From Clostridiaceae bacterium (GTDB lineage: Bacteria; Bacillota; Clostridia; Acetivibrionales; Acetivibrionaceae), in assembly GCA_012519925.1 (NCBI GenBank), contig JAAYPF010000239.1:1-39853 (forward strand): a stretch of 39,853 nt of DNA, read 5' to 3'. Every line of letters starts with the position of its first letter. Position 1 is the first letter of the stretch. This document shows positions 1,293-34,179 of this stretch, piece by piece. Position numbers and translations under genes: made by a program. The notes below the pieces were generated by a model. It ran no database searches, was not told the DNA's origin, and saw only the letters and a program-made list of their open reading frames with translations.

Positions 1293-3410
1293 TCATTTAT
1301 CCTCTTTAGAAAGATCTATTTTCCATATAACATTGTTTTCTAAGTCGGATAAGAGGATATTACCGTCATTGTCAAAGGTAAGGTCGTTTGGTACAGCAAA
1401 TTGAGCACTGTAGCCTGGAGAGATAGCAAGTCTTTTAGCACCTTTACCAACTAAGCCTGCTACTGTTTCTGCATCTGCTAGCTTACCGTTATCTAAAACA
1501 AGTCTTCTTACTATATTTCCGTCAATTATATATATATAGTTACCAGCAGCGACAATTTTTTTGGGTGAATAGAAACTGCATTGCTCATTGTCAATATAAT
1601 CTTGTTCTTTTTCCTTACCTGCAAATATTCTAAAAATTCCATCGGATTTATCGAGTTTTAATATGGTATTGTTTGATGTGCTTAAAATAAATATGTTATC
1701 TTCTTGATCTATAGTAATACTATCAGCACTTCCCTGTAATTCTCTAGAAAAATTTTGACCACTAAGCCTATCTACAAAGGTAAAGTTTGTTTTGGATTTT
1801 AAACCAATATTATTAGGCTGCAAGACATAAATGTTTTCTGAGCTATCAAAGGCAAAATCCGAAATGTTGTATGCTGAGCCAATAGATTGATAAATTAAGA
1901 AGGGTTCATCGTTTTTAAAGACATATATTTCAGAAACGTATTGCTCTTTTTCGTTTATATAAGGCACAGTTGAAAAATAGATGTTTCCGCTAGATGTTGT
2001 TTTTACAAGGTCGATATCTTTGAAATTATCTAGATTGGGGTCAAGAGTCTTTATAACTCCATCTTTAATAGTTCTAAGTTTTGTAAAGTCGGTAAAATAT
2101 GTAGTATTATTAATTTTATTGTGAGATATGCTTGTTGGGTTACAAATAGTAGCTGATTGAATATCACCGTCAATAATATCTGAGCGATGACCTGTTCCTG
2201 CAAATGGAGCTACCTTTGTGTTTTTCAGATACTTTAAATTAATACTCACATTCTTAATTTCGTCCTGAGGCTTGTTTACTAGTACGGTCAGTTTTAAAGG
2301 TTTGCCGTTATAAGTACCATCAAAATCTGTTTTTCCTTCTTTTAGAGGTTGGATTTCATTAATATTGATTTTTGCCACATCTGTAACAGGAGAATTCCAT
2401 TCGATTTCTGATGCTTTTAGTTCTTCTCTAGTGCCATCGGGATATCTTTTTATAACTTTAAAAACTCCTGTCTGGTTAACTGACAGGGAAAGTATTTGCG
2501 GTGACAACATCAAAAGTGCCGCATTTTCTCTATTGAGTGCAGAAACACCGAAATAGATAGTTGAAAAGGAAATCATAGATGTTATGAGCATAGCCGTTAT
2601 CAATATACGATTTGTTCTTCTTAACCGTGCGTCTAGAATCTTTACTTTGTTGACATTTTTTAGATCGTACAACAATGCATCAATATTTTGATACCTATCT
2701 TTTAAATCTTTTTTTATGCATTTTCTTACTATGTAATCCATATTTTTCGATATGTTGCTATTATACTGAAGAAGGGTTGTATCATCGTACTTTGGCAGAA
2801 CACCGGTAAGTAATTGATGTAGTGTGATTCCAAGGCTGTATATATCCGAACGTACATCGGAAGTACCTTCGGAGGTTAATTGTTCAGGTGCGGCATAGTG
2901 TGGAGTTCCAGCAATTACAGTATCTTTTTTATTTATGCCTTTATACTCACGAGAAATACCAAAGTCTATTATTACAGGTCTATTATCCCTCGTAATTATA
3001 ATGTTATGAGGTTTCAAATCTCTATATATAATAGGAAAAGGTTTTAGGTTGTGCAAATAGGACAAAACTTCGCACAACTGTTTTGCAAGGGATATAACCC
3101 TTTCCTCAGAAAGGGCACCGTAAGCCTCTAGCATCTTATTTAAGGGAGTTCCTTCTATATAACTTTCGACAATAAAAAAACCTGTTTCATCTTCTATAAC
3201 ATCAACGATTTTAGGTAGGCTGATATGATTCAATTTTTTTAGTATGTTGATTTCAGTTAAGAGTTCATATTTTGTGTTGTTTTTATTAATATGTTTTATG
3301 GCCCAAAGGTTACCAAGTTCAATATTTCTGCACAAGTATACTTCCCCGGAAGCACCTCTGCCTAAAAGTCTTTCTATTTTATATTTTTGTTTTAGTACTT
3401 CTCCAACCAT
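1293..3410 (-). CDS. Transmembrane Ser/Thr protein kinase with extracellular NHL-like propeller
   Basis: A 705-residue Hanks-type kinase. The catalytic domain (about 10-250) has the glycine loop GRGASGEVY (18-26), ATP lysine K39 in AIKH, helix-C glutamate E53, catalytic loop YRDLKPHN with D131 and N136 (Tyr replaces the usual His), DFG at 149-151 and APE at 174-176, so it should be active. One membrane span lies at about 268-291. Outside it are a short Ig-like stretch (about 300-385) and repeats of the type 'GNIYFSTV', 'ENIYVLQP', 'DNIFILST' and 'GNILLSDL' typical of NHL/SMP-30 beta-propellers (about 395-705). It carries no PASTA repeats, unlike PrkC/StkP. It is the last gene of an operon with a small membrane protein and an RCC1/SLH protein, and a divergent FHA gene lies next to that operon. 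The ligand and substrates are unknown. Upstream of the ATG is GAGGTTAGGG, about 8 nt away. Confidence 0.92.
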   Translation of the reverse strand: MVGEVLKQKYKIERLLGRGASGEVYLCRNIELGNLWAIKHINKNNTKYELLTEINILKKLNHISLPKIVDVIEDETGFFIVESYIEGTPLNKMLEAYGALSEERVISLAKQLCEVLSYLHNLKPFPIIYRDLKPHNIIITRDNRPVIIDFGISREYKGINKKDTVIAGTPHYAAPEQLTSEGTSDVRSDIYSLGITLHQLLTGVLPKYDDTTLLQYNSNISKNMDYIVRKCIKKDLKDRYQNIDALLYDLKNVNKVKILDARLRRTNRILITAMLITSMISFSTIYFGVSALNRENAALLMLSPQILSLSVNQTGVFKVIKRYPDGTREELKASEIEWNSPVTDVAKININEIQPLKEGKTDFDGTYNGKPLKLTVLVNKPQDEIKNVSINLKYLKNTKVAPFAGTGHRSDIIDGDIQSATICNPTSISHNKINNTTYFTDFTKLRTIKDGVIKTLDPNLDNFKDIDLVKTTSSGNIYFSTVPYINEKEQYVSEIYVFKNDEPFLIYQSIGSAYNISDFAFDSSENIYVLQPNNIGLKSKTNFTFVDRLSGQNFSRELQGSADSITIDQEDNIFILSTSNNTILKLDKSDGIFRIFAGKEKEQDYIDNEQCSFYSPKKIVAAGNYIYIIDGNIVRRLVLDNGKLADAETVAGLVGKGAKRLAISPGYSAQFAVPNDLTFDNDGNILLSDLENNVIWKIDLSKEDK

Positions 3411-3436
3411 AGTATTTACCCTAACCTCATTGAAAA

Positions 3437-3643
3437 TTAATTATCTTCTTCGAAATCAACTGTGTTTTCATTAGAATCAATTATGTTTTCTTCTACCTTT
3501 TCATAGATAGATTTGTCAGAAATATTGTTTTTTGATTTCTGAGAAAAAGCGGGAAAATTAAGTTTCAAATATGCAATCAAAAGAACAATATTTATTATTA
3601 AAGTCATTAAGCCAATTAGTATATATATAATTTGATACTTCAT
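3437..3643 (-). CDS. Small single-span membrane protein between SLH protein and kinase
   Basis: A 68-residue protein that I do not recognise. Residues about 5-27 are a hydrophobic membrane helix. The remainder is a polar, acidic tail (KVEENIIDSNENTVDFEEDN) probably in the cytoplasm, since two lysines follow the helix. A clear GGAGG lies 4-8 nt before the ATG, which supports it being a real gene in spite of its size. It starts 13 nt after the stop of the RCC1/SLH gene and ends 26 nt before the kinase start, so the three form an operon. A role as an accessory or adaptor of the kinase is only inference from position; the Ser and Thr residues in the tail would be possible phosphorylation sites. 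Confidence 0.7.
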   Translation of the reverse strand: MKYQIIYILIGLMTLIINIVLLIAYLKLNFPAFSQKSKNNISDKSIYEKVEENIIDSNENTVDFEEDN

Positions 3644-3656
3644 TAGGACCTCCGAA

Positions 3657-6600
3657 TTAAAGCTTTTTATATAACCTATATAGAATTACTGCAGCTTCCT
3701 TTCTTGTGCAGAATTCGGTTCCTTTAAACTTTCCATCGCTTCTTTTGATTATAAGAGCTTCTCTGTTTCCAAGGGATACGAATTTGCGTGCCCATGATGG
3801 AATGAGGTCTTTGTCTTTAAAATTGAGCCATTTGTCTCCGCTAGGGAATAAATATCCTTTTTTGGTGTTTAATGTAGCAGAGCATATTGTTATTATTTCT
3901 TGCCGATTAATTTTATTATTTCCCTTAAAAGTATTGTCTTCATAGCCTGAAATCAAGCCCTCATTATGAGCTATAGCAACTGAATTGTAGAACCATGAAG
4001 TTTCTTTTACATCTTTAAAATTTGTAAAGGCATTTTCATCTATAATGTTAAGACTTTTTACAATAAGGCATGCGAACTCACTTCTGTTTAATTGATCATT
4101 GGGGTGGAAAGAACCGTCTCCCCTACCGATTATTATTCCTTTAGATGCAAGAACCTCAATAGCCTCTTGTATTGCCATATCCTCCGATTTGATATCGTTA
4201 AAGGTAATTGTTTCTTCGATTAGATAATATTTTCCGCTGTTTTTTATGTTTACCTTTAAAGTTTTGTTTTCTGCGTTCTCCCAACCACCCATATTGTATG
4301 ATTTAGTGCTTAAAGGGGTAAATGCTGCTTTGTAATCAAAAGTATCATTAATGAACAAAGTGGCATATTCTGACTTTTGAGCCTGTATCTTATTATTTGA
4401 GTTTAGTGCTAAAACTGTTTTGTTAGTTTTTTGAGCATTTGTAGAATAGGGATTAAAAAATATATCATTATATATTGTGCAATAATCTGGATTACCATCT
4501 TTGTAAGGAAGTTCTAGTCCGATAAAGTAATCAAGTTTATCGACTTTAATGCTGTTTCCATACATAAACTCAAGACTTACTTTACTTTTAGTTTTTGTGT
4601 TCACTTCTTTACTTTCATCAATCATGGTAATTTTCAAATCATCACTTAACAGCCTATCTATGTTCTCATGGTATAATATTATATTTCCAAAACTTGTTGA
4701 GATTTTAACATCTATTTTACTTTCGTGTAAGATGGAAATATCCTTAAGTATATTGACAATTAGTTGCGTATTTGTTAGGTCTACATCAATATTAATCATT
4801 TTTCTGATTATTCTATTTGGCTCATAATCCTGAGTAATTAAAAAAGCTTCTATATCATTGTTTGCCATTATGACTAAATCGATTTGGTGTGAAATAAGCT
4901 CTTTGCTGACATCTATAGAACCATTCTCACAAAAGACCTTAATATAGGCAACTTTTTCAATTGCCTTCTCAATTTCTTTTTCAATGAGAGCGTTTTTTTC
5001 GTTATAAATGTCATCTGCGTTTTTGTATTTTTCAACTATGTCAACAACTTCTTTTTCAAAATCTTTAATTATTTTTTCATAATCCACATTTGATACGACC
5101 GGGGTGGCTTCTGGAATTGAAGCGGGTATTGTTTGTGTGGGGTATACTACAGTTGATGAATTGTTCTTATTGCTACCGCTGGTATTTTTACGCTTAGGAG
5201 TATAGTAAGTAGGTGTAGGAGTAGGATATGGTGTGGGTTCAGGAGTATAGTAAGTAGGAGTAGGATATGAAGTAGGTTCAGGAGTATAGTAAGTAGGAGT
5301 AGGATATGAAGTAGGTTCAGGAGTATAGTAGTAAGTAGGAGTAGGATATGAAGTAGGTTCAGGAGTATAGTAGTAAGTAGGAGTAGGATATGAAGTAGGT
5401 TCAGGAGTATAGTAGTAAGTAGGAGTAGGATATGGTGTGGGTTCAGGAGTGTAGTAGTAAGTAGGAGTAGGATATGGTGTAGGTTCAGGAGTGTAGTAAT
5501 AAGTAGGAGTAGGATATGATGTAGGCTTTGGAGTATATGTATCTACAGGAGATTGCACAGCTAAATTTCCCTTGTAGGATACTTTGTAAAGGATTGATTG
5601 TTCTTCGCTTTGAGGTATATCTTCTAGCAGAAGAATTGCTATACCTAAATTCGAATCATAACTGTAGATATCATTTACAACTGTTTCTTCTGTTCCGTTG
5701 GTATTTAAAATTGAAACTGTAAAATCAGAGGGGCTAACTGTTACTGGAATGTCACCTAAAAACTGTATATTCATATGATTTCCAATTACAGATGCACTGT
5801 CGATATATGAGGGGATAGCTATTTTTTGGGGTTTAAGAACAAAATCATGACCGATATCTGAAAGTTGAAACAGCGAGCCATCATTAGTTATAAAACTATA
5901 CAGCATATAATCTACGGCAATATCTGAAACATTGTCAAACAAAAATGTTGGGGTTGTATTATTATCTACAGCATAGATATGAGTTGAACGTTTACTTTCT
6001 TCCCAAATCCATAAATCACCACTTGTGTCTATTGCTAAAACATAATTATAGGCAGATACCTTTGAGATGTTATTCATAAGTTTAACTCTAGAGGGATTGT
6101 ATGCAGTGAAACTCTGGTCGTAGAAGCTTTCAATACCAAAGGCATATAGTGTGTTATCTGAAGTTATAAAGTAAGTAGAAAAAGGCGAAGGAATAACCTC
6201 AAGTACATCATCATGTACATTTTGGGGTTCCATTACGCTTCCGCCCTTCTGGTTTACACCTAGATGATCGTTAAGATTAGAGCCCCAGGAAAATAATTGG
6301 GCTTCATTATTTATGGCAAAAGATGAATCACCTTCTACAGCTATTTTATCGACATTATCCATGATTTTTATAGGTTGATAGCTATCTTCATAGCTCCCGC
6401 TTCCTAATTGACCGTGGTTGTTCTGACCCCATGACCATAGGGTGCCATCGTTCAGTAGAGCTAAAGTATGCCTCGGACCACAGACAACAGACTTTACAAC
6501 AGGGTTTTCTGAACTTTCATCTTTGTTAATTTCGATAGAAATGGGATTGTTTTTGCTATCCGTAGTACCATCACCCAATTGACCATAGGCATTATATCCC

Positions 6601-7097
6601 CAACCCCAAAGACTTCCGTCGCTTTTTATTGCAAAACTAGTGGAGCTATCTTTTCCAGTACTTATAGCTATTACATCATCCATAATATTTTGTGGGTAAA
6701 TGCGATCAGTATTAGTTCCGTCACCTAATTCTCCAAGCTTGTTACTACCCCAAGTCCATAAGGTATTGTCGTTGGTAAGTGCAAGTATATAGCCTTGACC
6801 GATTTTTACATCATAGACGTTTTCAAGCATTTTTACCGGTGATGAAAACTTGTCTTGTTTCAGTACTGTGGAATTATCGGCGTATGCACACCATTCCCAT
6901 AGACTATTATCATCAAGCAAACCAACGCATATTTCACCAGCATTGTATACGTTTTTCCATGAATTGGTGTTGTTATTTATAGAATTATCTGCATTTAATG
7001 CTACAGAATAAAGATTGTTTGGAATTAAGCCAACTATAAAAAGTGCTAATAAGACATTACAAATAAACCGTTTCTTAAAACGTATCCTTTTAGCCAT
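3657..7097 (-). CDS. Secreted RCC1-repeat protein with Pro/Thr/Tyr linker and three SLH domains
   Basis: A large cell-surface protein (1146 residues). After a signal peptide (about 8-36) come RCC1-type propeller repeats (about 50-420; for example TLWTWGSNKLGELGDG, SLWGWGYNAYGQLGDG, TLWSWGQNNHGQLGSG). A short beta domain follows, then a Pro/Thr/Tyr linker of about eight YTPEPTxYPTPTY units (about 520-634), a mixed region with an acidic helical segment (about 665-710), and three C-terminal SLH repeats (from about 965). The SLH repeats carry NRSE, NRQE and TRKE in place of the canonical TRAE, and should bind pyruvylated cell-wall polymer. RCC1 propellers commonly mediate protein-protein contacts; the partner here is unknown. 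The frame extends to a GTG at 7127, but the ATG at 7097 has GGGGGGAG 6 nt upstream and begins a good signal peptide. First gene of the operon that ends in the transmembrane kinase. Confidence 0.92.
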   Translation of the reverse strand: MAKRIRFKKRFICNVLLALFIVGLIPNNLYSVALNADNSINNNTNSWKNVYNAGEICVGLLDDNSLWEWCAYADNSTVLKQDKFSSPVKMLENVYDVKIGQGYILALTNDNTLWTWGSNKLGELGDGTNTDRIYPQNIMDDVIAISTGKDSSTSFAIKSDGSLWGWGYNAYGQLGDGTTDSKNNPISIEINKDESSENPVVKSVVCGPRHTLALLNDGTLWSWGQNNHGQLGSGSYEDSYQPIKIMDNVDKIAVEGDSSFAINNEAQLFSWGSNLNDHLGVNQKGGSVMEPQNVHDDVLEVIPSPFSTYFITSDNTLYAFGIESFYDQSFTAYNPSRVKLMNNISKVSAYNYVLAIDTSGDLWIWEESKRSTHIYAVDNNTTPTFLFDNVSDIAVDYMLYSFITNDGSLFQLSDIGHDFVLKPQKIAIPSYIDSASVIGNHMNIQFLGDIPVTVSPSDFTVSILNTNGTEETVVNDIYSYDSNLGIAILLLEDIPQSEEQSILYKVSYKGNLAVQSPVDTYTPKPTSYPTPTYYYTPEPTPYPTPTYYYTPEPTPYPTPTYYYTPEPTSYPTPTYYYTPEPTSYPTPTYYYTPEPTSYPTPTYYTPEPTSYPTPTYYTPEPTPYPTPTPTYYTPKRKNTSGSNKNNSSTVVYPTQTIPASIPEATPVVSNVDYEKIIKDFEKEVVDIVEKYKNADDIYNEKNALIEKEIEKAIEKVAYIKVFCENGSIDVSKELISHQIDLVIMANNDIEAFLITQDYEPNRIIRKMINIDVDLTNTQLIVNILKDISILHESKIDVKISTSFGNIILYHENIDRLLSDDLKITMIDESKEVNTKTKSKVSLEFMYGNSIKVDKLDYFIGLELPYKDGNPDYCTIYNDIFFNPYSTNAQKTNKTVLALNSNNKIQAQKSEYATLFINDTFDYKAAFTPLSTKSYNMGGWENAENKTLKVNIKNSGKYYLIEETITFNDIKSEDMAIQEAIEVLASKGIIIGRGDGSFHPNDQLNRSEFACLIVKSLNIIDENAFTNFKDVKETSWFYNSVAIAHNEGLISGYEDNTFKGNNKINRQEIITICSATLNTKKGYLFPSGDKWLNFKDKDLIPSWARKFVSLGNREALIIKRSDGKFKGTEFCTRKEAAVILYRLYKKL
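5196..5540 (-). repeat. In-frame 42/39-nt minisatellite encoding the Pro/Thr/Tyr linker
   Basis: About eight tandem units encode YTPEPTxYPTPTYY. Most are 42 nt; two are 39 nt because one Tyr codon is missing, and the last is irregular. The x position alternates Ser and Pro. Neighbouring units are nearly identical at DNA level, so the array has expanded recently and is likely to vary in length between strains. All changes keep the reading frame. Confidence 0.9.
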
Positions 7098-7133
7098 ATC
7101 TATCTCCCCCCAAATGTTAAGACTCACACATAC

Positions 7134-7163
7134 ATAATACCCTAATTAATGAAGAAATTACAA
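7134..7163 (-). promoter_or_regulatory. Promoter of the RCC1/SLH-kinase operon
   Basis: On the minus strand TTGTAA (-35) is followed after 18 nt by TATTAT (-10), about 37 nt before the chosen ATG. It is a plausible sigma-A promoter, weaker than the divergent one at 7233-7261. Confidence 0.5.
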
Positions 7164-7232
7164 GGGTTTTATGAGCCTAAAACAAAATATCTGATGCAAA
7201 TAATTTTGAGTACGCACCTGTTTATCTAAAAC

Positions 7233-7261
7233 TTGCAAGACGCAAGGGTTTCTAATATAAT
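7233..7261 (+). promoter_or_regulatory. Sigma-A promoter of the FHA gene
   Basis: TTGCAA, a 17-nt spacer and a perfect TATAAT. The predicted start of transcription is near 7268, giving a leader of about 36 nt. It diverges from the RCC1/SLH-kinase operon promoter, so the 206-nt region between the two genes could carry shared regulation. Confidence 0.75.
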
Positions 7262-7303
7262 AAATATGTACAAAATCAGCAAATAAAGGTAGTTGAGGGC
7301 GTA

Positions 7304-8374
7304 ATGAAAATTAAGGTATTCGGAGATGCGATAAGTGGATTACAAAGAATTATTTTTGTAAATAAAAAGGAATGTGTTGAAAAGCTTGAAATAAGCCTTG
7401 ATACCTTTGAAAATTGGGAAAAGGGCAGGAGCAAACCTAGTGCAGGCAATTCCGAGTATGCCAAAAACGTATCAATTATTGATGTTATGGAGGTCTTTGA
7501 GGCTCAATATAATAAGCGTTTGGTGCGGGGAATGATGGATAGGGAGCTGCTGGAGGATTTTTTATCTTGTATGCCTTTACCCGAAGCTACAAAAGAATAT
7601 CTAAGTGAGTACATAATGAAGCCTGGCTTTGCACAAAAGACTATCGAATGTGCATATGAGTATCACAATTTGTTGCAGAACAAGGCTGAATTTTTGTGGA
7701 AAAAAGTAATAGAAATATATAGTGACAATGATTTTGGAGAAAACAAGAGGAAACTAAAAGTTATACTTGGTAATAGAACTGTTATTGTCAGTACTGATTT
7801 AGGTATAACCTTGAAGAAACTAGCGGAAGGAATAGTTAGCGAACTTTCAAAAAGAGATCTCATAGAAAATGAATTTGAATATAAGAAACATTATTCATTC
7901 CGTATTAGGGATAAAGAAAAGAAAATACATGTTATTAAAGCTAATGAACAGACCCACTTAAGCGACATTGAAGAAATAAATTATAATAGAATTGAAATGG
8001 TTGAACGCATTGGAGAAACAACTGTAGTAATTACTGCTAATATGGAGGTAGAAGAAGTAGTTTATCCTTTTATGGAAAGAATCTTAGAAGATAATTCTTC
8101 TAACCCTGAAAAATTTAGAGTGTTTAAAGATTATTTCGTTATAGGGAGAAGAAGTGAAGATTCGGATTATGTTATTTCCAGCAGATTTATTGGGAATACA
8201 CATGCTCTAATAAATTTAGAAAGTGGAAGGTATTATATAACCGATCTCAATTCAAGAAATGGTACATATGTAAATGGTGAGCGGCTTAAGCCTTCCGAAA
8301 AACGTGAGATATTTAATAATGATATTATAGGAATTGTTAATTTTAAGTATTTGTTTGCAATTCCAGAGAATTAA
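7304..8374 (+). CDS. FHA-domain protein with an HTH-like N-terminal segment
   Basis: A 356-residue protein without signal peptide or membrane span, so probably cytoplasmic. Residues about 270-350 are a forkhead-associated domain, which binds phosphothreonine peptides. It keeps the Gly-Arg of strand 3-4 (IGRR, 280-283), SSR (292-294), H300 and NSRNGTYVNG (316-325). The N-terminus contains SLDTFENWEKGRSKPS (about 31-46), very like the end of an XRE helix-turn-helix, but the preceding helices are not clearly recognisable. The middle (about 60-265) matches nothing I know. GAGGG lies 4 nt before the ATG. It is transcribed divergently from an operon encoding a transmembrane Ser/Thr kinase, the natural source of phosphothreonine, so it may be the reader or response protein of that kinase. 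That link is inferred from gene position. Confidence 0.88.
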   Translation: MKIKVFGDAISGLQRIIFVNKKECVEKLEISLDTFENWEKGRSKPSAGNSEYAKNVSIIDVMEVFEAQYNKRLVRGMMDRELLEDFLSCMPLPEATKEYLSEYIMKPGFAQKTIECAYEYHNLLQNKAEFLWKKVIEIYSDNDFGENKRKLKVILGNRTVIVSTDLGITLKKLAEGIVSELSKRDLIENEFEYKKHYSFRIRDKEKKIHVIKANEQTHLSDIEEINYNRIEMVERIGETTVVITANMEVEEVVYPFMERILEDNSSNPEKFRVFKDYFVIGRRSEDSDYVISSRFIGNTHALINLESGRYYITDLNSRNGTYVNGERLKPSEKREIFNNDIIGIVNFKYLFAIPEN

Positions 8375-8481: not shown

Positions 8482-8979
8482 CTACAGGCCTATCTGCCCT
8501 TTTTTGTAAGAAAAACAAGTGCGTTCAAATATTTCGTAGTTTTCAGCAGGGTCATTTTTTTGATAAGAGTTTTCTATAATGAATTCATGATATTTGTTAC
8601 AAAGTATTTGTTCGAGCCATATTACATTAATTATAAATTCATAGTAGCGTTCATTGGAATAGCTGCTGTAGTAGCTTTTTTCATTAATAAAGAAAGGATC
8701 TCTTTTTGTAATATTGTATAGGGCATCGGCTAGTTCTTTTGTTTTGACGGTCTTTTTAATTCTTTGAAGGTCGTTATCATCTTCGTTAATGGAAAGCTTT
8801 TCATTGAATAGTTTTGCAATCATAACAGCGGTTTCGTCATCGAAGAATCTGTATGCAGTATTTTTGTAGCTTTTGAGCTTTGAGCTGAATGTGCCATCCT
8901 TGACACCAATAATCTTTGCTGCAAAAGATTTCTTTATACCTAGAACTTTTAAAGTAGTAAGAAGAACTTTTCTGGTCAT
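8482..8979 (-). CDS. Hypothetical protein with phage-repressor-like HTH N-terminus
   Basis: A 165-residue protein of no recognised family. The first about 60 residues (MTRKVLLTTLKVLGIKKSFA onward, with KIIGVKDGTFSSKLKS near 22-37) resemble a small Cro-like helix-turn-helix: a helix, a Gly turn and a recognition-like helix. The remainder (about 65-165) is charged and helical with many aromatic residues, and suggests no function. Cysteines are few and there is no signal peptide or membrane segment, so it should be cytoplasmic. The ATG at 8979 has a good GGGGGAG 6 nt upstream, which supports a real gene. It is convergent with the FHA gene and divergent from prfA. DNA binding is a tentative inference from the N-terminal pattern only. 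Confidence 0.7.
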   Translation of the reverse strand: MTRKVLLTTLKVLGIKKSFAAKIIGVKDGTFSSKLKSYKNTAYRFFDDETAVMIAKLFNEKLSINEDDNDLQRIKKTVKTKELADALYNITKRDPFFINEKSYYSSYSNERYYEFIINVIWLEQILCNKYHEFIIENSYQKNDPAENYEIFERTCFSYKKGQIGL

Positions 8980-25167: not shown

Positions 25168-28100
25168 ATGAAATTAATAAAAAGAGTATTTACTATTATT
25201 TTAGTTGCAGTAATACTATCGACATTAATGCCTTCATTTCAACAATATGTTTGGGCGGCGTCTTCACCTGTTAAGATTTATGTTGACAGCTATAAAGATG
25301 GTAAGCTTAACATTAGATGGGATAAAGTCAGTGGGGCAAATTCGTATGCAATTAGTTATCATACGCCAGATAATAAGGTGCAGATTAAAGCAGTAAATTC
25401 TCAGGATAATACATATCAGATTATAGATCTTCAAGATGACTATATATATGATTTCAAAATAAATATATACAGTAGCATTTTTGATGAAGATAGTATAGAT
25501 AGTATAGATGAAGATGATCTAGAGACTGTAACGGATAATATAATAGGCGAGGGACTATTGTACTATCTGCCAAGAGTTAGCTTTCAATCCACTGTAGAAG
25601 AACAAATTAGGAAGGGTATAGATGGTGGAGGTTATGAAATTGGAGATGAGCCGAGGATTAAGTTGGAATGGAATATGCCGAAAATTTGGGTTGAAGGCAT
25701 CGGATATATAAATGCAAATAGAACAGAGGCACTAGAGGTTGTAAGATATAATTTAGAGGATGTTTATAAGAACAATATAGATATGTCAAAATTTAACTTC
25801 CGAATTAACATATCTAGTAGTGAGGCTACTCTAAATAGTGGAGCTGCTCAATCTGCCATCTTTATTGAGTATAGTGATGATGACTCTAAATATATAGCAT
25901 ATCTGTCAAATAATAACGATGTAATAGCTGATGTGCAAAACCAAAATGGTAAAATGAGTTTGACATTGGTTGGAAGAAAGGATACTTCTGCTCCTTTGCC
26001 AGAAGTTAAAGAACCGGAAGCAGCTGAAGGATATTTACCTAATAGTGATATACTTCCTGGAACTGTTTACTATATGAATATAAGACCTTTATACCAGGAT
26101 AATGATGGAAATATTCAAAGTGTAATAAGTGTTGCAGCACCGGGTGATTTTAATGGAAGCATTCTAAAAGGAGAATTTCCATATACATATACGCCAATAA
26201 GACTTCAATTGACTAAAGATTCAGCTAACAATATTTATGTAAAAATCTATAGAATAAATCAAGGAAGTCTTGATCTTCCGAGACTTTATTATGAAGTGCA
26301 ATCTAGTAATGACCAGACGATAGAGGGCGATTGGATTGTAAAAAAGACTATAGATGACAGCTATTTTGTTAAAGGAGCCGAGAGCGCCCTAACAGTTATA
26401 TCCGATGTGGGAGTTAACAATGAAAACTTTTATAAGATAGTTGTAAAGACTGATACCACTAAAGACAGAATTGAATCAAAGCCTTTGAAATACATACTTG
26501 CAGAAGACACAAGCAAATCACCAGTGCCCGTAGGCGTAACAGTTGTTGATAGAAAACCTGTAACAAGATCAGTTGAAGTTGATGGTAAGACTATAATTCA
26601 GAAGTCATCAGATATTACAATATCGTGGGAAAAGCCGGCCAATTGGGATGAAATTAGAGCAAATACTAACATAGAAGAAGATGTTGTATATCATGTAATG
26701 TTTAATGTGAGTGAGTATGAGGATGATTCCATGCCTTATCCCGAGTTAAAAGCTGACGACACAGTATATGGGTATTTTCCGTTGATATACAGAAAAGCTT
26801 TGTATTTTTCATCAAAAGAAGTAAAAGAGAATGGAAATCGTTTAGAATATACCATCGACGGATTTGATCTTTTTAAAGGGTATTGTTTACATTATTTTGA
26901 TGAAAGTGGCAATGCGATAATAAGGCAGGATGCTGAAATAAGAAAAGGGTTGGATGAAAATGAAAAGAATTATCCTAATTTTTTGCTACCTAATAAGGTT
27001 TATTATCTAAAGATGTATACTACAAGTAATACCGATACCGATCGTAATTCAATGGATATAGAAAAAATGTCAGATAAATCGTTAACTATAAGTTTTACAA
27101 CAAGGACAATAAATGAAATTGATGTTCCTCTTCCTAAAAATATGAGAGTAGTAGCTAATGAAGCAGATGTGAGTAGTGTAGTAGATAATGAAGCAGATGA
27201 AAGTATAGGAGAAACGACAATAGTTTCAAATTATGTTGATCTTCAGTTTGATAAGGTAGATCTAAACTGGAGCAATTACATAGCTGATACAACGGTTTCA
27301 AAAGCAGTATATTATGATTTTTATATGAGTACCCGCACAGATTTAAACTCCTTCATAAAAATTGGAACAACAGAAGATTTGGAGGGGGATATTAAGTTTG
27401 TTGGTGCAGAAGACGCACAGAGTACTTCTATAAGAATGACAATCCGAGAGTTTGCGAACGGTACAATAGCCTATACCAATTTTGGTTCAAAGCTCAAACC
27501 GAATACTACCTATTATTTTATTGCAAAGACAAGGTTGAGAGCAGAGGGTATGGAAACAGAGAGAGAATCAGATTACAGTTCTTTGCTTTCAGTTACAACA
27601 GTAAAGGGGGTAATGGGAGAAGCCGATGAGACATTAAAACTTCCCTATGCTCCTGTTGATTTTCAAATTGCTCTTGATGAAGAGGGAAATCAAATTCTCA
27701 CCAGTACAAAGGTTACTTTCAAATGGACTAGGGAAGAAAGTGATGTGGTATACAATATTATTTCCTCATCAAGAAAGATAGCTGCCAATGAAAAAGAATA
27801 TGAAGGCAATAATGATGCTATATATCAAAGTTTTCTTGCAAACTTTGGTGAAATTATCCTTGATCCTTCTCTTGAAGATTTACCTGCAAACTTTGAATAT
27901 GATCCTGTTACAAAGGAATGCAGATATACTATTGATAAATGGCTATCTCCAAACAAACTATACTACTTTAGCATAAAAGCAATAAAGAAAGATGACAATA
28001 CCAATTACAGCCCATGGGTATCCATACCCGTTACCACTAACCTTATTGAACAACCAGCATATTTAGAGGCAGTGGCGGATGTGCAATTAGGGTTCTATTT

Positions 28101-30162
28101 TGACGATGGTGATATAGCGACTGAGGCAAAGGATTATAGTGTACATATAAAGTCGGAGAAAGATTTAAGATTCAACCTTCTTAAAAAGGATAAATATACC
28201 ATTATAAAATTTGGTACATTAAGCTATGTAAGGTTAATAAATCTGCAAGCAAATACTTATTACGATATAAGGGTATATAAAAATGAGGGCAGTGAATTGG
28301 TGTACACAAAAGACGAGATGTATACCCGGGATTCCTACCATCAACTTGAGATCAAGTGGAGAGGTCTTTCTGAGTATAGATATGAGGTTGCAATAAAGTC
28401 ACCTTGGGAAGATGATTATATTTTACTAGATGAATCTAATTTTGAGGAATATACAAATACCCAAGGTAGGGTATTGCCTTATTATGGAGAAAAGAACACT
28501 AAGACTAGTGGAACCGATTATGAATACTATTATGCTAGGATTAAGTCTATTCCAGTAAAGCTGGTAGATGGAAGTTATGAGAATCAGCCTTTAAAATCAA
28601 ATACTAAATACTACATAAAGGTTAGAGCTAAAAAGGTAGATTCGGTGGATTTGGGAATAATATCCTATTCAAAATATTTAGATCCTATTTTTATTAGGAC
28701 AGATTTTAGTCAGGAGGATTACGATAGTGAGGATAGGGAGACAAAAACAGAAGCTTCATTTTTAGATAGAATCAAGAGACTTGAAGAGGCGTTATTCTGG
28801 AGAATAAATATTAAGAACCAGGCTGAAAACAAGTTGCTGTTGAAAGGAGATAGGGTTGTAAATGAAATAGAGAACAGTGGAACCTATATTTTTACTTTAG
28901 ATATTTCTCATTTTGCTAAATTTGCTACCCTTGATCAGATATATATACCTGTTGAGGTAATTAAAGCTTTAGAATTACAAAACAAGAGCCTTTTGATCAG
29001 GACTAATGGTGCAGAGTACAGTGTAAGGCCAAATACTTTTGATTTAAATGCTAGACCGGAGATAAAGGAGCTAAAAGAAAATAATAATATTAAGGGTATC
29101 TACTTGACTTTAAATATAGGTCGCAGCCAAAAAGGTAAAGTTGCTATTCCCAATGGATTTGAATCAGTGTCTTATATTAATGAATTAGAGATTGATGCTG
29201 TAGGGACGTCCTTAACTTATACACAATTTAAGGCTCAGATACAAGATCGGTTGTATAATAAGGATTCTGGCCTTGTTCAGAAGAAGCTTGAAGAACTACT
29301 CAATAAAGAATTATCCGATTCTAAATATTTAGATCAGTTAATGAACGAGTCTATTAGTGATATTGAAATTGAACTATCTGAATTTATTTACCTCAAAATG
29401 GAGGGTGGAAAAGGGATTTCACCAATAACCATAAAAAGCAAAGAAATAAACAGTTTTGACAATCCGATGTTAATTAATCTTAATTATAATGAACATACAG
29501 GTTTGAAATTGCCCTATATTAGATATTATGGTAGCAATAAGTGGCAAAAGCTAAATCAAAGTTCTGCTATTTCCTATAGCAAGCTGGCATTTAATGTAAT
29601 AATGACTGGGGAATATGCCATATTTGCACAAGAAGAGTTTGCAAAGGATTTGTTGGAAAACTACTATCATACGCCTAATATAAGAATGCTCCTTTCTAAA
29701 TATGATTTGAGTGGAGTGTTTGGAGATATGAGATCTTTCCTTCCTGAAGATAGCGTAAAAGTGAAAGAAATAATACTTTTATATGAGACAATAATAGGTT
29801 TAGACCAAGGTGAAAGTGGTCTTACAATTAATCAAAAGGCACAAAGATATAACCTTGAAAGTCTTATAGCCTTCGGAGGAGTTGTAAGAGATGTGAGCAG
29901 ACAGGAAACTGCCAAAGTAATAATGATGATGTATTCGGCTAAAACAGGAGTCAATACAATCAGTTTGATTCCTAATAGCAGTAAATCAGCTAAGGATATG
30001 TCTAGGGTAGATAAGGCATATTATAAAGATGTTCTTATTTGTGTAGATTTAGGATTGATAGAGCTTAATGACGAAGGTAGGTTTATCCCTGATGGAACTA
30101 TATCTAGGGCTGAATTGGCAACTGCCTTTGTAAAGTTACTTAAGCTTACTGGAGATATATAA
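25168..30162 (+). CDS. Very large secreted fibronectin type III protein with degenerate SLH-like C-terminus
   Basis: Exported surface protein of 1664 residues. A signal peptide (1-31, ending VWAA) leads into repeated beta-sandwich units of fibronectin III type (about 35-1190), recognised by recurrent W-x(n)-Y pairs such as LNIRWDKVSGANSYAISYHT, and by 'LxPNTTYYFIAKT', 'LSPNKLYYFSIKA' and 'LKSNTKYYIKVRA'. Residues about 1195-1500 form a tail domain also found in the next gene. Near 1590-1660 one SLH-like repeat is seen (YYKDVLICVDLGLIELNDEG, then IPDGTISRAELATAFVKLL, with SRAE in place of TRAE). With only one clear SLH, firm wall anchoring is uncertain. GGAGG lies 7 nt before the ATG. First of three co-oriented surface genes. 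Confidence 0.88.
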   Translation: MKLIKRVFTIILVAVILSTLMPSFQQYVWAASSPVKIYVDSYKDGKLNIRWDKVSGANSYAISYHTPDNKVQIKAVNSQDNTYQIIDLQDDYIYDFKINIYSSIFDEDSIDSIDEDDLETVTDNIIGEGLLYYLPRVSFQSTVEEQIRKGIDGGGYEIGDEPRIKLEWNMPKIWVEGIGYINANRTEALEVVRYNLEDVYKNNIDMSKFNFRINISSSEATLNSGAAQSAIFIEYSDDDSKYIAYLSNNNDVIADVQNQNGKMSLTLVGRKDTSAPLPEVKEPEAAEGYLPNSDILPGTVYYMNIRPLYQDNDGNIQSVISVAAPGDFNGSILKGEFPYTYTPIRLQLTKDSANNIYVKIYRINQGSLDLPRLYYEVQSSNDQTIEGDWIVKKTIDDSYFVKGAESALTVISDVGVNNENFYKIVVKTDTTKDRIESKPLKYILAEDTSKSPVPVGVTVVDRKPVTRSVEVDGKTIIQKSSDITISWEKPANWDEIRANTNIEEDVVYHVMFNVSEYEDDSMPYPELKADDTVYGYFPLIYRKALYFSSKEVKENGNRLEYTIDGFDLFKGYCLHYFDESGNAIIRQDAEIRKGLDENEKNYPNFLLPNKVYYLKMYTTSNTDTDRNSMDIEKMSDKSLTISFTTRTINEIDVPLPKNMRVVANEADVSSVVDNEADESIGETTIVSNYVDLQFDKVDLNWSNYIADTTVSKAVYYDFYMSTRTDLNSFIKIGTTEDLEGDIKFVGAEDAQSTSIRMTIREFANGTIAYTNFGSKLKPNTTYYFIAKTRLRAEGMETERESDYSSLLSVTTVKGVMGEADETLKLPYAPVDFQIALDEEGNQILTSTKVTFKWTREESDVVYNIISSSRKIAANEKEYEGNNDAIYQSFLANFGEIILDPSLEDLPANFEYDPVTKECRYTIDKWLSPNKLYYFSIKAIKKDDNTNYSPWVSIPVTTNLIEQPAYLEAVADVQLGFYFDDGDIATEAKDYSVHIKSEKDLRFNLLKKDKYTIIKFGTLSYVRLINLQANTYYDIRVYKNEGSELVYTKDEMYTRDSYHQLEIKWRGLSEYRYEVAIKSPWEDDYILLDESNFEEYTNTQGRVLPYYGEKNTKTSGTDYEYYYARIKSIPVKLVDGSYENQPLKSNTKYYIKVRAKKVDSVDLGIISYSKYLDPIFIRTDFSQEDYDSEDRETKTEASFLDRIKRLEEALFWRINIKNQAENKLLLKGDRVVNEIENSGTYIFTLDISHFAKFATLDQIYIPVEVIKALELQNKSLLIRTNGAEYSVRPNTFDLNARPEIKELKENNNIKGIYLTLNIGRSQKGKVAIPNGFESVSYINELEIDAVGTSLTYTQFKAQIQDRLYNKDSGLVQKKLEELLNKELSDSKYLDQLMNESISDIEIELSEFIYLKMEGGKGISPITIKSKEINSFDNPMLINLNYNEHTGLKLPYIRYYGSNKWQKLNQSSAISYSKLAFNVIMTGEYAIFAQEEFAKDLLENYYHTPNIRMLLSKYDLSGVFGDMRSFLPEDSVKVKEIILLYETIIGLDQGESGLTINQKAQRYNLESLIAFGGVVRDVSRQETAKVIMMMYSAKTGVNTISLIPNSSKSAKDMSRVDKAYYKDVLICVDLGLIELNDEGRFIPDGTISRAELATAFVKLLKLTGDI
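27150..27199 (+). repeat. Imperfect 30-nt tandem duplication in the fibronectin-III gene
   Basis: A 20-nt segment encoding VANEAD/VDNEAD recurs 30 nt later with one base change. It is an in-frame duplication in a linker between fibronectin-III units. Confidence 0.7.
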
Positions 30163-30239
30163 ATGCTTTTCATTTAAAATATAAAAGGATTTTAGGCTGT
30201 GATTAGGTGGAAGAATTTCTGAAAATAGGAGAAATTGAT

Positions 30240-33200
30240 ATGAAAAGATTTTATAGAGTATTAGGTTTAATATTATTATTGTCAATAATTATACAAAACT
30301 TTTCGGGAATAAGGGTATTTGCCTATATACCTGATACTCCGAATGCACCAACGCAGTTCAGGGTTGAAAAGCTAAACGAAGACCAGCCTCCGATAGGATT
30401 CGATGAGTTTGATAAATATTATGTGGATTTAAAATGGGGCTTAGAAGGTGAAAGTGGTATTTATTCGAATTTATATCTTCAGGAGGTTGCAAAGGGTTAT
30501 AGACCCGTTACTTCTCGTGTATTAAAGGAACGTGATATACCGAATAAAACGGATGATAATATACCGAATAAAACGGATGATAATTCTATTAGGCTAAAAG
30601 AGCTCAAGTCGGGAACTATATATAATTTAGATATGACTGCTTATCGTACTTATCCTGATGGAGACAAAGTATATAAAAGCCCGGAATCAGGATTGTCAAA
30701 TAAGGTAAAGGTGCTTACTGATATTGAGATTGCTGCCTATTCTCAAGGAACAGATAAGATAAAAATTGAGTGGGATGATGTATGGGATACTCAAGGAAGA
30801 ATATCATATAAGCTCTATATTTCAGAAAGCGAATTGTTTTCAAATACTCAACCCATATACATTGGAAATTCGCAGATAGGAGAAGGAAAAGCAGTAACAG
30901 TCAATGAAGCAAATGGAAAACTTGAATATATTCATAATGTGAGAGATTCAGGCAGAGTCTACTATGTACGAATTGAACCAGATATTAGCAATGATGAAAT
31001 TAAGAGAACACAATATACTAAGACGGTAAAAGCGAGCAGTTTTATACTAGTAAAGACTTCGAGAGTGGCATCATCGGATATGGGGGTAATATGGAAATTA
31101 GAGTGGAGCCCCGTTGTTACAGGTCTTAGTTCAAGTGGCATTAAGGTTTCATATCAAATATATAGAGGAACTATAGGTTCTAATACTCTAGCTCAGTATA
31201 TGGCAGAAACAGACGGTACGAACTTTTTTATCACTTTGCCTGAAGGTGAAGTCACACAGTATTTCTTGATTAGGGCTATAGTGACTAGAGGTGGTGAAGA
31301 TGTATACAGGGGAATAAGAATTGAATCGGATCAAATAATTGTAGAGGAACAGGAGACCCCTACAACCCCTACAACCCCCGAAATAGTAGATTTGTTTGAA
31401 AGGGTTGCTGGAGACGTTATAATAAGCTATGAAGAAGAGCTGACTTCAACCGGGGCTACTATTCTTTGGAAAGCTCCAATAAAAGGAAATGGAGAGCTAG
31501 ACAGTGATGTTACTTATGATATTTGGCTAGTAACCGACCCTAATACTTTGGATGCACCTCCTGAAAATGAAAAGATTGCATCTGACTTTATGGTTGGGTC
31601 AGCAAACCACATAATTAACAATAACAAAGTACTCGGGTATAAATATAGAGTTGAAGGTCTTACACAAAATTCGACCTACTACTTTAAAATTGTTGCTAAG
31701 AAGAAAGCTGTTGAGAATGTAAATGGCGTTGTACAGAGTGTTACATATCAATCGGATGCAGCACTTAAGGTTATAATTACGCCTATTGATGAACCTATAG
31801 ACCAGCCGGTAATTCCTGCGAGACCTCCCATTAAGATAAAGGAGAGTTCGCCAGGGGAGTACATGATTACAGAAAAATCCGTAACTATTCAATTAAAGAA
31901 CCTATGGTATGAAAAGTTTAATTTTACGGGCAACAAGTGGGAATACATTACAGACGAAGAACTAAATACGAATGAAGAATTAAAAGATATTTTCTTTGAC
32001 AATCAAAATGGAACTGCTACTACAGTAGTGAATGATGTTTACTATAGAAAAGTGGCCTATGATTCAGGTGTTACTTTTGATGTTGGCTGTATTGAATATG
32101 TTGAGGGAATGAAATATGAAGATATACAAAGCATGCAGCCAGACAAGATAACAAATTTCCCATCTATAGCTAATGATGCAACAGAAAACCCAAATCTAAA
32201 CCCTGATGGAATGCGACACAACGTAGTTATAGACTTGACAGATCTTGAACCTAACAAAATATATGTTATATGGGCTAGAGCTGTCAGGTCAAGTGCCAAC
32301 CTTGCCTCCGGTCCATCGGACCCTATAGTATTTACTACTTTGCCTGTTATTATAACACCAGTGGAAAAACCCGTTGTGCCATATTTTAATTATAGCTTAG
32401 CCAGTGATAACTATATTGATATTGGATGGGATATTGTACCGGAATATAATTATTATCTTAAGTATGGCGTTGAGGACAATGTAAATGCGGCTTCAAACCA
32501 GATTACTATTACATCACAAGAGCTTGAGGATGCTATTTATTACAGGGTAGGGGATTTACAACCAGACACCTTATATTATTTCTGGGTTCAGGCTGAAGCG
32601 ATTAATGCTGAAGGTGAAAGTAGTAAATCTGATTGGAGCGATTCCTATGCTGTAAGGACATTGGAATTAATTCCGCCTGAAACGCCAAAGGGTTTTGGAA
32701 TAAAGAACTCAAAGGATGCCATAACAAAAAACACTATTACCTATGAATGGATGATGGAAGAGAATATACATTATATACTTGAAATTGCTAGTGATATAAA
32801 TTACAGTAGCTCCTCAGAATATCTAGTAGGTATGGGTTCTGAATATACGGTTAATGAATTACTGTCCAACCACAGGTACTATGCAAGGTTGTACGCCTAT
32901 GATCCAATTAAGGGACTTCGTTCTCAACCTACCCAGAGTATAACTGTGCGAACTAAAAGAAGTGATGACGATTATGATTCGGACCAGGATATTGAGGATA
33001 TAATAACCGGCGAATTTGTTGAAAAAGATAAGGAAATAATAAATGATACATGGAATATAAGAATAACTGGTGTTAATGCAGATCGTTTTGTACAGCATGT
33101 TTTAACCGATAACAAGCTCGATTACAGGCTGGATGTATCCACACCACCTTCAAAATGCAATGTGATAAGTATTTTAATATCCGATAAAGTTTTTAAAGCT

Positions 33201-34109
33201 TTGACTTCTATTGGTGAAAATTTAATAATTAGAACTCAAAAAGTTGATTTAATAATAAGACCGGGAGTTTTGACGACTAATATAAGTAATCCACTAGTAA
33301 ATATAGATTCAAGGGTGGACTATGAAATTACAATTTCGACATCTGGGCTAAGTGGAGATGGTATAAAAAATATGGACGTCAAGCTAGAGGCTGGGAACTT
33401 TAGAATTAGTGCTCTTGAGGGGGCTAATAAAATTCCTGTTAATAAGGTATTAAAACCTTTGAAGTTTGAAGTTATGTATGATAAAGAAAATTGGTATAGT
33501 AACGGAAAGACATCAGGTTTTGTGTATGATTCAGTTTTGACAACGTGGACAAGGGAAAATGCTTTTGCGACATTTGATAGAGATACAAATAAAGGGAAGC
33601 TGACGTTTGAGACATTTAAACCTGCTGATATTATAGTAGCACAATATGGTAATGACTATTTTGACGATATATATTACCATAGTTATGAGACAGTTATAAA
33701 TAATGTGGCAGCTGCTCATGATATTAAAAGTATAAGTGGAAGATTATTTGGACCCGATTTGAATGCTACTGTGGGTGATAGTGTCAAACTGATGTTTGAT
33801 TCTTTAGATTATAAGTATGGAAACAATTACATGAATGAAGCATTTAAATCAGGCTTTATAGTCTATGAGGATATTAATTTATCAAGTAAAAATTGTAATG
33901 CTTCAAAGGCATATTCGATGATAATTAGACTATTTGAAATTAAATCGGGAACAAGGTTAGCAAGCGAAAGGAAATCAAACTTTATAGACAATAACGGATT
34001 TACAATTATACGTGAAGGAAAAGCTATCTCATCGGACACTATTGTTAGCAGAGGAGAAATAATGTACCTTATAGAAAAACTGCTTGTATACATAGGTGAG
34101 ATAGATTAA
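30240..34109 (+). CDS. Second large secreted fibronectin type III protein, paralogue of the preceding gene
   Basis: Exported protein of 1289 residues. A signal peptide (about 1-32, ending RVFAY) is followed by several fibronectin-III units (about 38-905; for example 'LKSGTIYNLDMTAYRTY', 'LTQNSTYYFKIVAKKKA', 'LQPDTLYYFWVQAEA'), with a TTPTTPTTPE linker near 375-383. The tail (about 908-1289) is related to that of the upstream gene: both share an IRT-x(n)-RP segment inside a beta-rich domain (upstream LLIRTNGAEYSVRP, here LIIRTQKVDLIIRP), and the C-terminus resembles worn-out SLH repeats. Only a weak SLH signature remains. The frame opens at a GTG at 30207, but AGGAG lies 8 nt before the ATG at 30240, where the signal peptide begins. 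It follows the first gene by 77 nt and is followed after 70 nt by an SLH gene. Confidence 0.87.
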   Translation: MKRFYRVLGLILLLSIIIQNFSGIRVFAYIPDTPNAPTQFRVEKLNEDQPPIGFDEFDKYYVDLKWGLEGESGIYSNLYLQEVAKGYRPVTSRVLKERDIPNKTDDNIPNKTDDNSIRLKELKSGTIYNLDMTAYRTYPDGDKVYKSPESGLSNKVKVLTDIEIAAYSQGTDKIKIEWDDVWDTQGRISYKLYISESELFSNTQPIYIGNSQIGEGKAVTVNEANGKLEYIHNVRDSGRVYYVRIEPDISNDEIKRTQYTKTVKASSFILVKTSRVASSDMGVIWKLEWSPVVTGLSSSGIKVSYQIYRGTIGSNTLAQYMAETDGTNFFITLPEGEVTQYFLIRAIVTRGGEDVYRGIRIESDQIIVEEQETPTTPTTPEIVDLFERVAGDVIISYEEELTSTGATILWKAPIKGNGELDSDVTYDIWLVTDPNTLDAPPENEKIASDFMVGSANHIINNNKVLGYKYRVEGLTQNSTYYFKIVAKKKAVENVNGVVQSVTYQSDAALKVIITPIDEPIDQPVIPARPPIKIKESSPGEYMITEKSVTIQLKNLWYEKFNFTGNKWEYITDEELNTNEELKDIFFDNQNGTATTVVNDVYYRKVAYDSGVTFDVGCIEYVEGMKYEDIQSMQPDKITNFPSIANDATENPNLNPDGMRHNVVIDLTDLEPNKIYVIWARAVRSSANLASGPSDPIVFTTLPVIITPVEKPVVPYFNYSLASDNYIDIGWDIVPEYNYYLKYGVEDNVNAASNQITITSQELEDAIYYRVGDLQPDTLYYFWVQAEAINAEGESSKSDWSDSYAVRTLELIPPETPKGFGIKNSKDAITKNTITYEWMMEENIHYILEIASDINYSSSSEYLVGMGSEYTVNELLSNHRYYARLYAYDPIKGLRSQPTQSITVRTKRSDDDYDSDQDIEDIITGEFVEKDKEIINDTWNIRITGVNADRFVQHVLTDNKLDYRLDVSTPPSKCNVISILISDKVFKALTSIGENLIIRTQKVDLIIRPGVLTTNISNPLVNIDSRVDYEITISTSGLSGDGIKNMDVKLEAGNFRISALEGANKIPVNKVLKPLKFEVMYDKENWYSNGKTSGFVYDSVLTTWTRENAFATFDRDTNKGKLTFETFKPADIIVAQYGNDYFDDIYYHSYETVINNVAAAHDIKSISGRLFGPDLNATVGDSVKLMFDSLDYKYGNNYMNEAFKSGFIVYEDINLSSKNCNASKAYSMIIRLFEIKSGTRLASERKSNFIDNNGFTIIREGKAISSDTIVSRGEIMYLIEKLLVYIGEID
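30537..30584 (+). repeat. Perfect 24-nt tandem duplication
   Basis: Two identical 24-nt units (30537-30560 and 30561-30584) encode IPNKTDDN twice. The exact identity points to a recent replication-slippage event in a loop of the first fibronectin-III unit. Confidence 0.9.
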
Positions 34110-34179
34110 GATGATTGCCAAAAATAAACACTTAAAAAACTTAAAAAAAGCCTATATAAAGAAGGATTTGAGGTATGCA

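Follow-up and report, generated by a model that had tools for sequence, protein, structure and literature searches.

An NHL-propeller kinase, an FHA protein and a wall-anchored surface protein form a candidate envelope signalling locus in a Clostridiaceae bacterium

A 39,853-bp contig of a Clostridiaceae bacterium (JAAYPF010000239.1, assembly GCA_012519925.1; hereafter the window) carries a compact locus in which a transmembrane Ser/Thr kinase, a mini membrane protein and a wall-anchored RCC1/SLH surface protein are encoded leftward, separated by gaps of 13 and 26 bp, and a helix-turn-helix (HTH)-like/FHA protein is encoded divergently. Our favoured reading, offered tentatively, is that this is a stand-alone envelope signalling locus that would derive from a Tad-associated kinase/FHA/surface-protein set and relay to HTH-FHA control of the divergent promoters. 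To our knowledge, outside the PASTA kinases most bacterial Ser/Thr kinases have neither a known ligand nor a known direct gene-control output; here a single locus brings together a sensor and candidates for the wall ligand, the phospho-docking peptide and the DNA-binding reader. The four genes of an initial annotation, made from the letters alone, were all found as open reading frames (ORFs) at the proposed coordinates and with the proposed domains (Pfam: Pkinase, RCC1, SLH, FHA). The start of the RCC1/SLH gene had to be revised and is probably the ATG at 7097, six bases past GGGGGGAG, rather than the GTG at 7127. A fifth gene, absent from that description, is by its conservation part of the neighbourhood (Table 1).

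The kinase keeps a complete active site, as first annotated, with RDLKPHN, DFG and the APE region all present. Its external propeller-like domain was resolved by structure modelling and profile searches into a Big_2-like domain and a six-bladed NHL propeller. The propeller model matched the sensor domain of Mycobacterium tuberculosis PknD (1rwi; Z 21.2, root-mean-square deviation (rmsd) 3.0, 240 residues aligned) as well as teneurins (Z 20–22) and Pizza designs (Z 20–21), and the sequence profile agreed (2.9e-9 to 1rwi). This model was built from four sequences and had a mean predicted local distance difference test score (pLDDT) of 54.5 overall, the kinase part being poor and most of the propeller lying at 70–90. 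The Pfam scan of the kinase found no PASTA repeats, and the PASTA-kinase model NF033483 scored 163 bits against a cut-off of 450, with a match confined to the kinase part. The contrast with PASTA kinases drawn at the outset holds, yet an external NHL propeller on a kinase is already known from PknD, in which it reportedly senses osmolarity (PMC4601284). The two proteins share the order of kinase, membrane span and external six-bladed propeller. They differ in that the window kinase has the extra Big_2-like domain, has a wall SLH protein, a mini membrane protein and an HTH-FHA protein as partners, with no phosphate-transport genes seen beside it, and has a kinase domain that groups with Tad/DUF6382-type kinases in a tree that did not include PknD. 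An anti-phage kinase system was also considered and rejected: PADLOC matched the kinase domain only, and neither the FHA protein nor the fifth gene gave a match.

The recurrence of the synteny in other genomes marks the gene set as more than a chance association. Among 58 genomes of the order, a kinase with the same ectodomain was found at seven loci in six genomes (E < 1e-70); the search profile was built from four of these loci and found the other three. At the level of the class (391 genomes), the whole kinase occurs in one further genome, G354, the only match among the 22 genomes of its own order, and in genome G099 the propeller forms a protein of its own. Across the phylum (398 genomes), seven genomes match at E ≤ 1e-10; only the window's own genome does so along the entire ectodomain profile, the six others matching a single part. 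The eight kinase loci are those of the window's genome (G000), of a member of the same genus (G001), of Pseudobacteroides cellulosolvens (G028, two loci, a and b), and of G029, G030, G057 and G354. The initial annotation had named rare proximity of kinase and FHA genes in other genomes as the outcome that would speak against it; contrary to that outcome, the two are neighbours within one cluster at six of the eight loci, the partner being an HTH-FHA gene in G000, G001, G028a and G030, a DUF6382-FHA gene in G057 and another FHA gene in G354. In G029 the kinase contig (5.4 kb) is too short to show an FHA neighbour.

The neighbourhood recurs with all five genes in G001, but the set is split in P. 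cellulosolvens. There, one locus (L094) holds the mini protein, kinase, a short FHA protein and the fifth gene without RCC1, and another (L006) holds a divergent RCC1/SLH–long FHA pair with no kinase beside it. G030 has a locus of the first type, and G029 has the divergent pair (L093) with its kinase on another short contig; the divergent RCC1/SLH–FHA pair occurs at four loci, the window included. The split thus ties an FHA protein to the kinase at one place and to the wall protein at another, and in the window both links coincide; such relatives, which divide the gene set into its parts, add to the value of the locus. In G099 (L130, 7425–11784), a PP2C-like gene, the gene for an NHL-propeller protein with a signal-like start and a kinase gene are neighbours, and this separate propeller between kinase and PP2C-like genes fits a sensor role.

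Where might such a set have come from? A tree of 29 kinase domains placed the eight NHL kinases in one group (support 100/100) that joined five DUF6382/Tad-type kinases (96/89), with long branches flagged. By eye, the kinases labelled as Tad-type lie near Tad genes in G002, G003 and G007, and apart from FHA and Tad-like genes in G004 and G005. The NHL kinase of G057 itself lies among Tad genes, after a DUF6382-FHA gene and together with a mini gene and an SLH gene; the Tad assignment there draws on a T2SSF match (1.7e-10), a Tad match that narrowly missed its cut-off (21.9 against 22.3 bits), and prepilin peptidases recognised by eye. The window locus resembles the clostridial Tad/Flp sets of kinase and DUF6382-FHA (with or without PP2C) in its sister kinase group, in its FHA neighbour and in that the NHL kinase of G057 sits inside such a cluster, and differs from them in that neither a Tad nor a PP2C gene was seen near it and HTH-FHA stands in place of DUF6382-FHA. 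We read it as a set that may have left a Tad pilus cluster and gained an HTH-FHA partner.

At all eight loci the gene immediately upstream of the kinase, 9–57 bp away, encodes a small single-span protein. In the window this protein has one hydrophobic span near the N-terminus and an acidic tail, in which Thr61 (3461–3463) lies within ENTVDF. The sequence diverges rapidly between loci: BLAST linked the window copy to those of G001, G028a, G028b and G029 (E 3.4e-5 or better) and weakly to that of G354 (0.005), and found no link to those of G030 and G057, where the assignment is by position, size and layout. All eight tails nevertheless contain a Thr that is followed at +3 by V, I, L or F and preceded within five positions by an acidic residue, and in an alignment of four of the eight proteins Thr61 is the only invariant tail residue, besides Asn29 at the membrane border. 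A hydrophobic residue at +3 after Thr suits several FHA domains, and the tail Thr is a possible FHA docking site. The chance of the motif in shuffled tails was 0.17–0.69 each, with a product of 1e-4 over all eight loci and 6e-4 over the six less related ones; because the motif was defined after the sequences had been seen, and in short tails, we treat it as a lead and not as proof.

The FHA protein (P0002) was modelled from six sequences with a mean pLDDT of 69. The HTH-like N-terminus proposed earlier gained weak support, from a profile match of residues 3–47 to the HigA-2 antitoxin (E 0.0011) and from a three-helix model of residues 1–40 (pLDDT mostly 76–85), but no Pfam HTH family matched. 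Residues 148–233 show a strand and helix order fitting a beta-grasp (pLDDT about 50–71), and no DUF6382 was found in the Pfam scan. A YukD-like identity (YukD/EsaB, ubiquitin-like) for this middle domain gained no convincing sequence match. The FHA fold was closest to EmbR (Z 11.8, rmsd 2.4, 89 residues aligned), with many FHA domains close behind; the structural alignment rows (VIA-align) covered mainly this domain. EmbR/PknH is reported to couple FHA to DNA binding (PMC4601284), and the window pair shares with it the proposed DNA-binding N-terminus, the C-terminal FHA domain and a dedicated membrane kinase. It differs in that the HTH, if real, is HigA/Cro-like, in that Pfam finds neither an OmpR-type winged helix nor a BTAD domain in P0002, and in its additional middle domain. 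A motif, GETT, which precedes the FHA domain, is invariant in all four long FHA proteins, and ETTVVI in the window protein resembles ETTSVF of GarA/OdhI.

What does the propeller sense? The initial annotation put forward the RCC1 protein or another wall ligand, and the relatives do not support RCC1 in this role. The SLH protein close to the G057 kinase has stalk and SLH in common with the window's wall protein (P0003; 6e-61) and lacks RCC1, and the 20 kb read around each RCC1–stalk–SLH relative in G028 and G030 contain neither a kinase nor an FHA gene. For these reasons the stalk plus SLH is a steadier companion of the kinase than RCC1, although the link is not exclusive. A stalk profile (P0003 about 700–985, built including sequences of G000, G001, G028 and G057) matched all six kinase-bearing genomes of the order, the G029 match covering only 53 positions at a contig end. 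Among the other 52 genomes of the order it matched one (G003) at E ≤ 1e-14, three at E ≤ 1e-9 and six at E ≤ 0.001. The co-occurrence (6/6 versus 1/52 genomes) gives a Fisher value of 1.7e-7, for a cut-off picked post hoc, three genera, kinship uncorrected and four of the six genomes in the profile. The protein encoded after the G354 kinase shares part of the stalk with the G057 protein (1.3e-13), its match to P0003 itself not being significant (0.06–0.12). In G003 (L163, 8838–19016), a stalk/SLH surface protein lies, by eye, beside a Flp/Tad pilus cluster, which hints that the stalk family may belong to Tad pilus biology.

The intergenic region contains a sigma-70-like site for the FHA gene at 7233–7261 (+; TTGCAA, 17, TATAAT) and one for the RCC1/SLH gene at 7163–7134 (−). 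The scanned region held 38 such sites against 39.7 in shuffles, and because the count equals chance these sites are not significant on their own. Visual comparison aligns the first site with G001 and the second with the other three loci, and this alignment across loci is a better argument for promoters than the site count. A palindrome at 7232–7246 was rejected as an operator, G001 keeping only half of it. As for the fifth gene, a profile of its four known members found only those four among the 58 order genomes, each beside a kinase and an HTH-FHA gene; these are also exactly the genomes in which those two genes are neighbours. One further weak match (4.2e-4) came from the 391 genomes of the class. 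Its product looks HTH-like by eye only.

How could these parts work together? We infer a flow from wall to kinase to FHA/HTH protein to DNA, including its ligand, substrate sites, FHA binding, DNA binding and direction of control. The propeller would respond to the condition of the wall, or to the stalk protein, and the activated kinase would phosphorylate the C-terminal Thr of the mini protein, the ETT motif in the FHA protein, or both. The FHA domain might then dock onto the phosphorylated mini tail at the membrane; alternatively, as in GarA/OdhI, it might bind the ETT motif of its own protein once this is phosphorylated. Either event could alter where the HTH-FHA protein resides or how it binds DNA, and this protein would regulate the divergent promoters and hence the supply of surface protein and kinase, with the fifth gene product as a possible co-regulator. 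The tail and ETT peptides make this relay idea testable. In its fullest form, an undescribed wall-to-DNA phosphothreonine relay, the SLH protein and NHL kinase would sense the envelope, the kinase would mark the C-terminal Thr of the mini protein, and the mark would recruit or release an HTH-FHA regulator with its own ETT switch, the whole having arisen by uncoupling of a Tad-pilus kinase module with DUF6382-FHA swapped for HTH-FHA; as a complete chain we regard this as doubtful.

Several observations weigh against the favoured reading. At G028b the nearest HTH-FHA gene found is about 13 kb off, the 9 kb read on the opposite side contain none, and a stalk gene lies beside the kinase set at only four of the eight loci (G000, G001, G057 and, as a partial relative, G354), to which the isolated RCC1–stalk–SLH relatives must be added. 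The G354 kinase lacks the activation-loop Thr, and no PP2C gene was seen at the window locus. The post hoc definition of the tail motif and the weakness of the HTH match count on the same side, and comparison of the fifth gene product with solved structures gave no match and so no known fold. Lastly, all four long FHA forms have GxxH in place of the canonical SxxH; so do, in all, 11 of the 17 FHA domains compared in 16 proteins, the window's included.

Gly in this position would be expected if the FHA domain served as a structural adaptor independent of phosphorylation, with joint regulation of wall protein and kinase behind the gene order and no relay. GR, SxxH and NG are named as the phosphothreonine site of FHA domains (PMC1262709), and the window protein has Gly at the phosphate-contacting Ser; the FHA domains of the T7SSb protein EssC are reported to lack the site and to bind a pseudokinase (PMC11217815). 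Yet GR, His and NG are kept in P0002, both short FHA forms keep the Ser, and Gly also occurs in six of eight DUF6382-type FHA domains compared. We consider such an adaptor unlikely. An equally unlikely alternative, in our judgement, is a switch of the GarA/OdhI type alone, in which the kinase would phosphorylate ETT, the FHA domain would close on itself and the mini protein would be simply the kinase's membrane partner. It draws on the invariant GETT, on at least one ETT-like motif in all eight DUF6382-type FHA proteins (a permissive pattern, with DUF6382 checked by Pfam in two), and on the likeness of ETTVVI to the ETTSVF peptide of the ETTS motif reported to be phosphorylated in GarA/OdhI (PMC8546545). 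The kinase-linked short FHA proteins of G028 and G030, however, lack GETT, though their mini proteins keep the Thr. P0002 is longer than GarA/OdhI, with further domains, and nothing was seen at the locus tying it to 2-oxoglutarate metabolism.

The kinase could instead regulate a Tad pilus or other machinery elsewhere in the genome, replacing the Tad-type kinase that the sister genome G002, which has no NHL kinase, carries beside DUF6382-type FHA and PP2C genes. Contig C197 of the window's own genome has a DUF6382-FHA gene and, by eye, a PP2C-like gene, and the 12 kb that were read out of its 32 kb gave no kinase hit, so the window kinase may also serve the FHA protein encoded there; stalk/SLH relatives have Tad genes as neighbours in G057 and, by eye, in G003. 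We rate this explanation as quite unlikely, since no Tad gene was seen near the window locus and the local FHA partner differs and bears an HTH. The closest published set in the literature searched is that of the T7SSd and T7SSe type VII secretion systems, described as having a kinase, the single-span protein TseH with a short cytoplasmic tail, the FHA protein TseJ and a large envelope protein, with a ubiquitin-like protein also given for T7SSe (PMC11217815). The likeness of the mini protein to TseH is one of layout. An accessory module of this TseD/TseH/TseJ kind is highly improbable: the own draft genome has no WXG100 match at E ≤ 0.001, and no mini protein or NHL kinase was seen by eye in six T7SS-type 20-kb stretches of relatives. 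As to an FtsK-type ATPase (TsxC/EssC), none of the five FHA ORFs of the own genome is EssC-sized, a result limited to ATPases that carry FHA.

The stand-alone signalling reading also has a counterpart in type VI secretion, where PpkA is reported to phosphorylate a membrane protein that is then bound by Fha (PMC3953482). The succession proposed here from kinase to membrane protein to FHA binding would parallel PpkA–TssL–Fha by analogy, in logic alone; no type VI genes were seen at the locus. No description of such a locus was found among the top-ranked matches in the open-licence literature. The parts are of known kinds; their combination and the mini protein are undescribed as far as searched.

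Table 1. Coordinates, strands and supporting evidence for the genes and domains of the locus.
Feature	Position	Strand	Basis
Transmembrane Ser/Thr kinase	1293..3410	-	Pfam Pkinase 2.1e-49; structure and profile matches; tree
Six-bladed NHL propeller of kinase	about 1311-2219	-	Model versus PknD sensor 1rwi; profile matches to NHL propellers
Big_2-like domain of kinase	about 2274-2519	-	Profile match to LigA Big_2
Membrane span of kinase	about 2541-2609	-	Read from sequence
Kinase domain	about 2655-3389	-	Pfam Pkinase 2.1e-49; bounds are our own
Mini single-span membrane protein, 68 amino acids	3437..3643	-	Position upstream of kinase; tail motif
Wall-anchored RCC1/SLH surface protein (P0003)	3657..7097	-	Pfam RCC1 1.8e-34, SLH 9.3e-31
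SLH of P0003	about 3666-4022	-	Pfam SLH
Conserved stalk of P0003, no Pfam family	about 4173-5030	-	Stalk relatives
Pro/Tyr/Thr repeat linker of P0003	about 5148-5555	-	Sequence
RCC1-like propeller of P0003	about 5856-6965	-	Pfam RCC1
Hydrophobic N-terminal segment of P0003	N-terminus	-	Signal peptide by eye
Divergent intergenic region	7098..7303	.	Sigma-70-like sites in both directions
HTH-like/FHA protein (P0002)	7304..8374	+	Pfam FHA 8.5e-19
HTH-like N-terminus of P0002	about 7310-7444	+	Profile match to HigA-2 antitoxin; model
Helical region of P0002	between HTH-like and middle domain	+	Model
Possible beta-grasp domain of P0002	about 7739-8008	+	Low-confidence model
GETTVVI of P0002	about 8009-8032	+	Motif alignment
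FHA of P0002	about 8111-8359	+	Pfam FHA 8.5e-19
Fifth conserved gene, 165 amino acids, no known family	8482..8979	-	Four of 58 order genomes, always at kinase/FHA locus

Several further observations were made at related loci. In DUF6382-type FHA proteins (L097, L086, L087, L085, L084, L092, L091 and L133), the linker that precedes the FHA domain contains one or two DETTLL-like motifs, which may represent a phosphorylation switch common to these proteins. In G354 (L129, 948–3278), an ABC transporter with two N-terminal FHA domains is clustered with FHA, PP2C-like, mini and NHL kinase genes. At the P. cellulosolvens locus L006 (11993–20264), contractile-injection-like genes recognised by eye, an Hsp70-like protein and a soluble kinase lie beside the RCC1/SLH–FHA pair; no such contractile-injection-like genes were seen at the other loci, and the set is possibly another machine under kinase/FHA control.

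Elsewhere in the window, an HsdM gene (type I restriction methylase subunit, 3–899, truncated at the contig end) adjoins a gene for a VanU/Cro-like HTH protein (883–1155). After the ATP synthase epsilon gene, positions 25168–34812 hold three adjoining surface-protein ORFs of 1664 amino acids (weak fn3 and one SLH match), 1300 amino acids (fn3) and 233 amino acids (SLH); the last two almost touch and may be a single SLH protein split over two frames.

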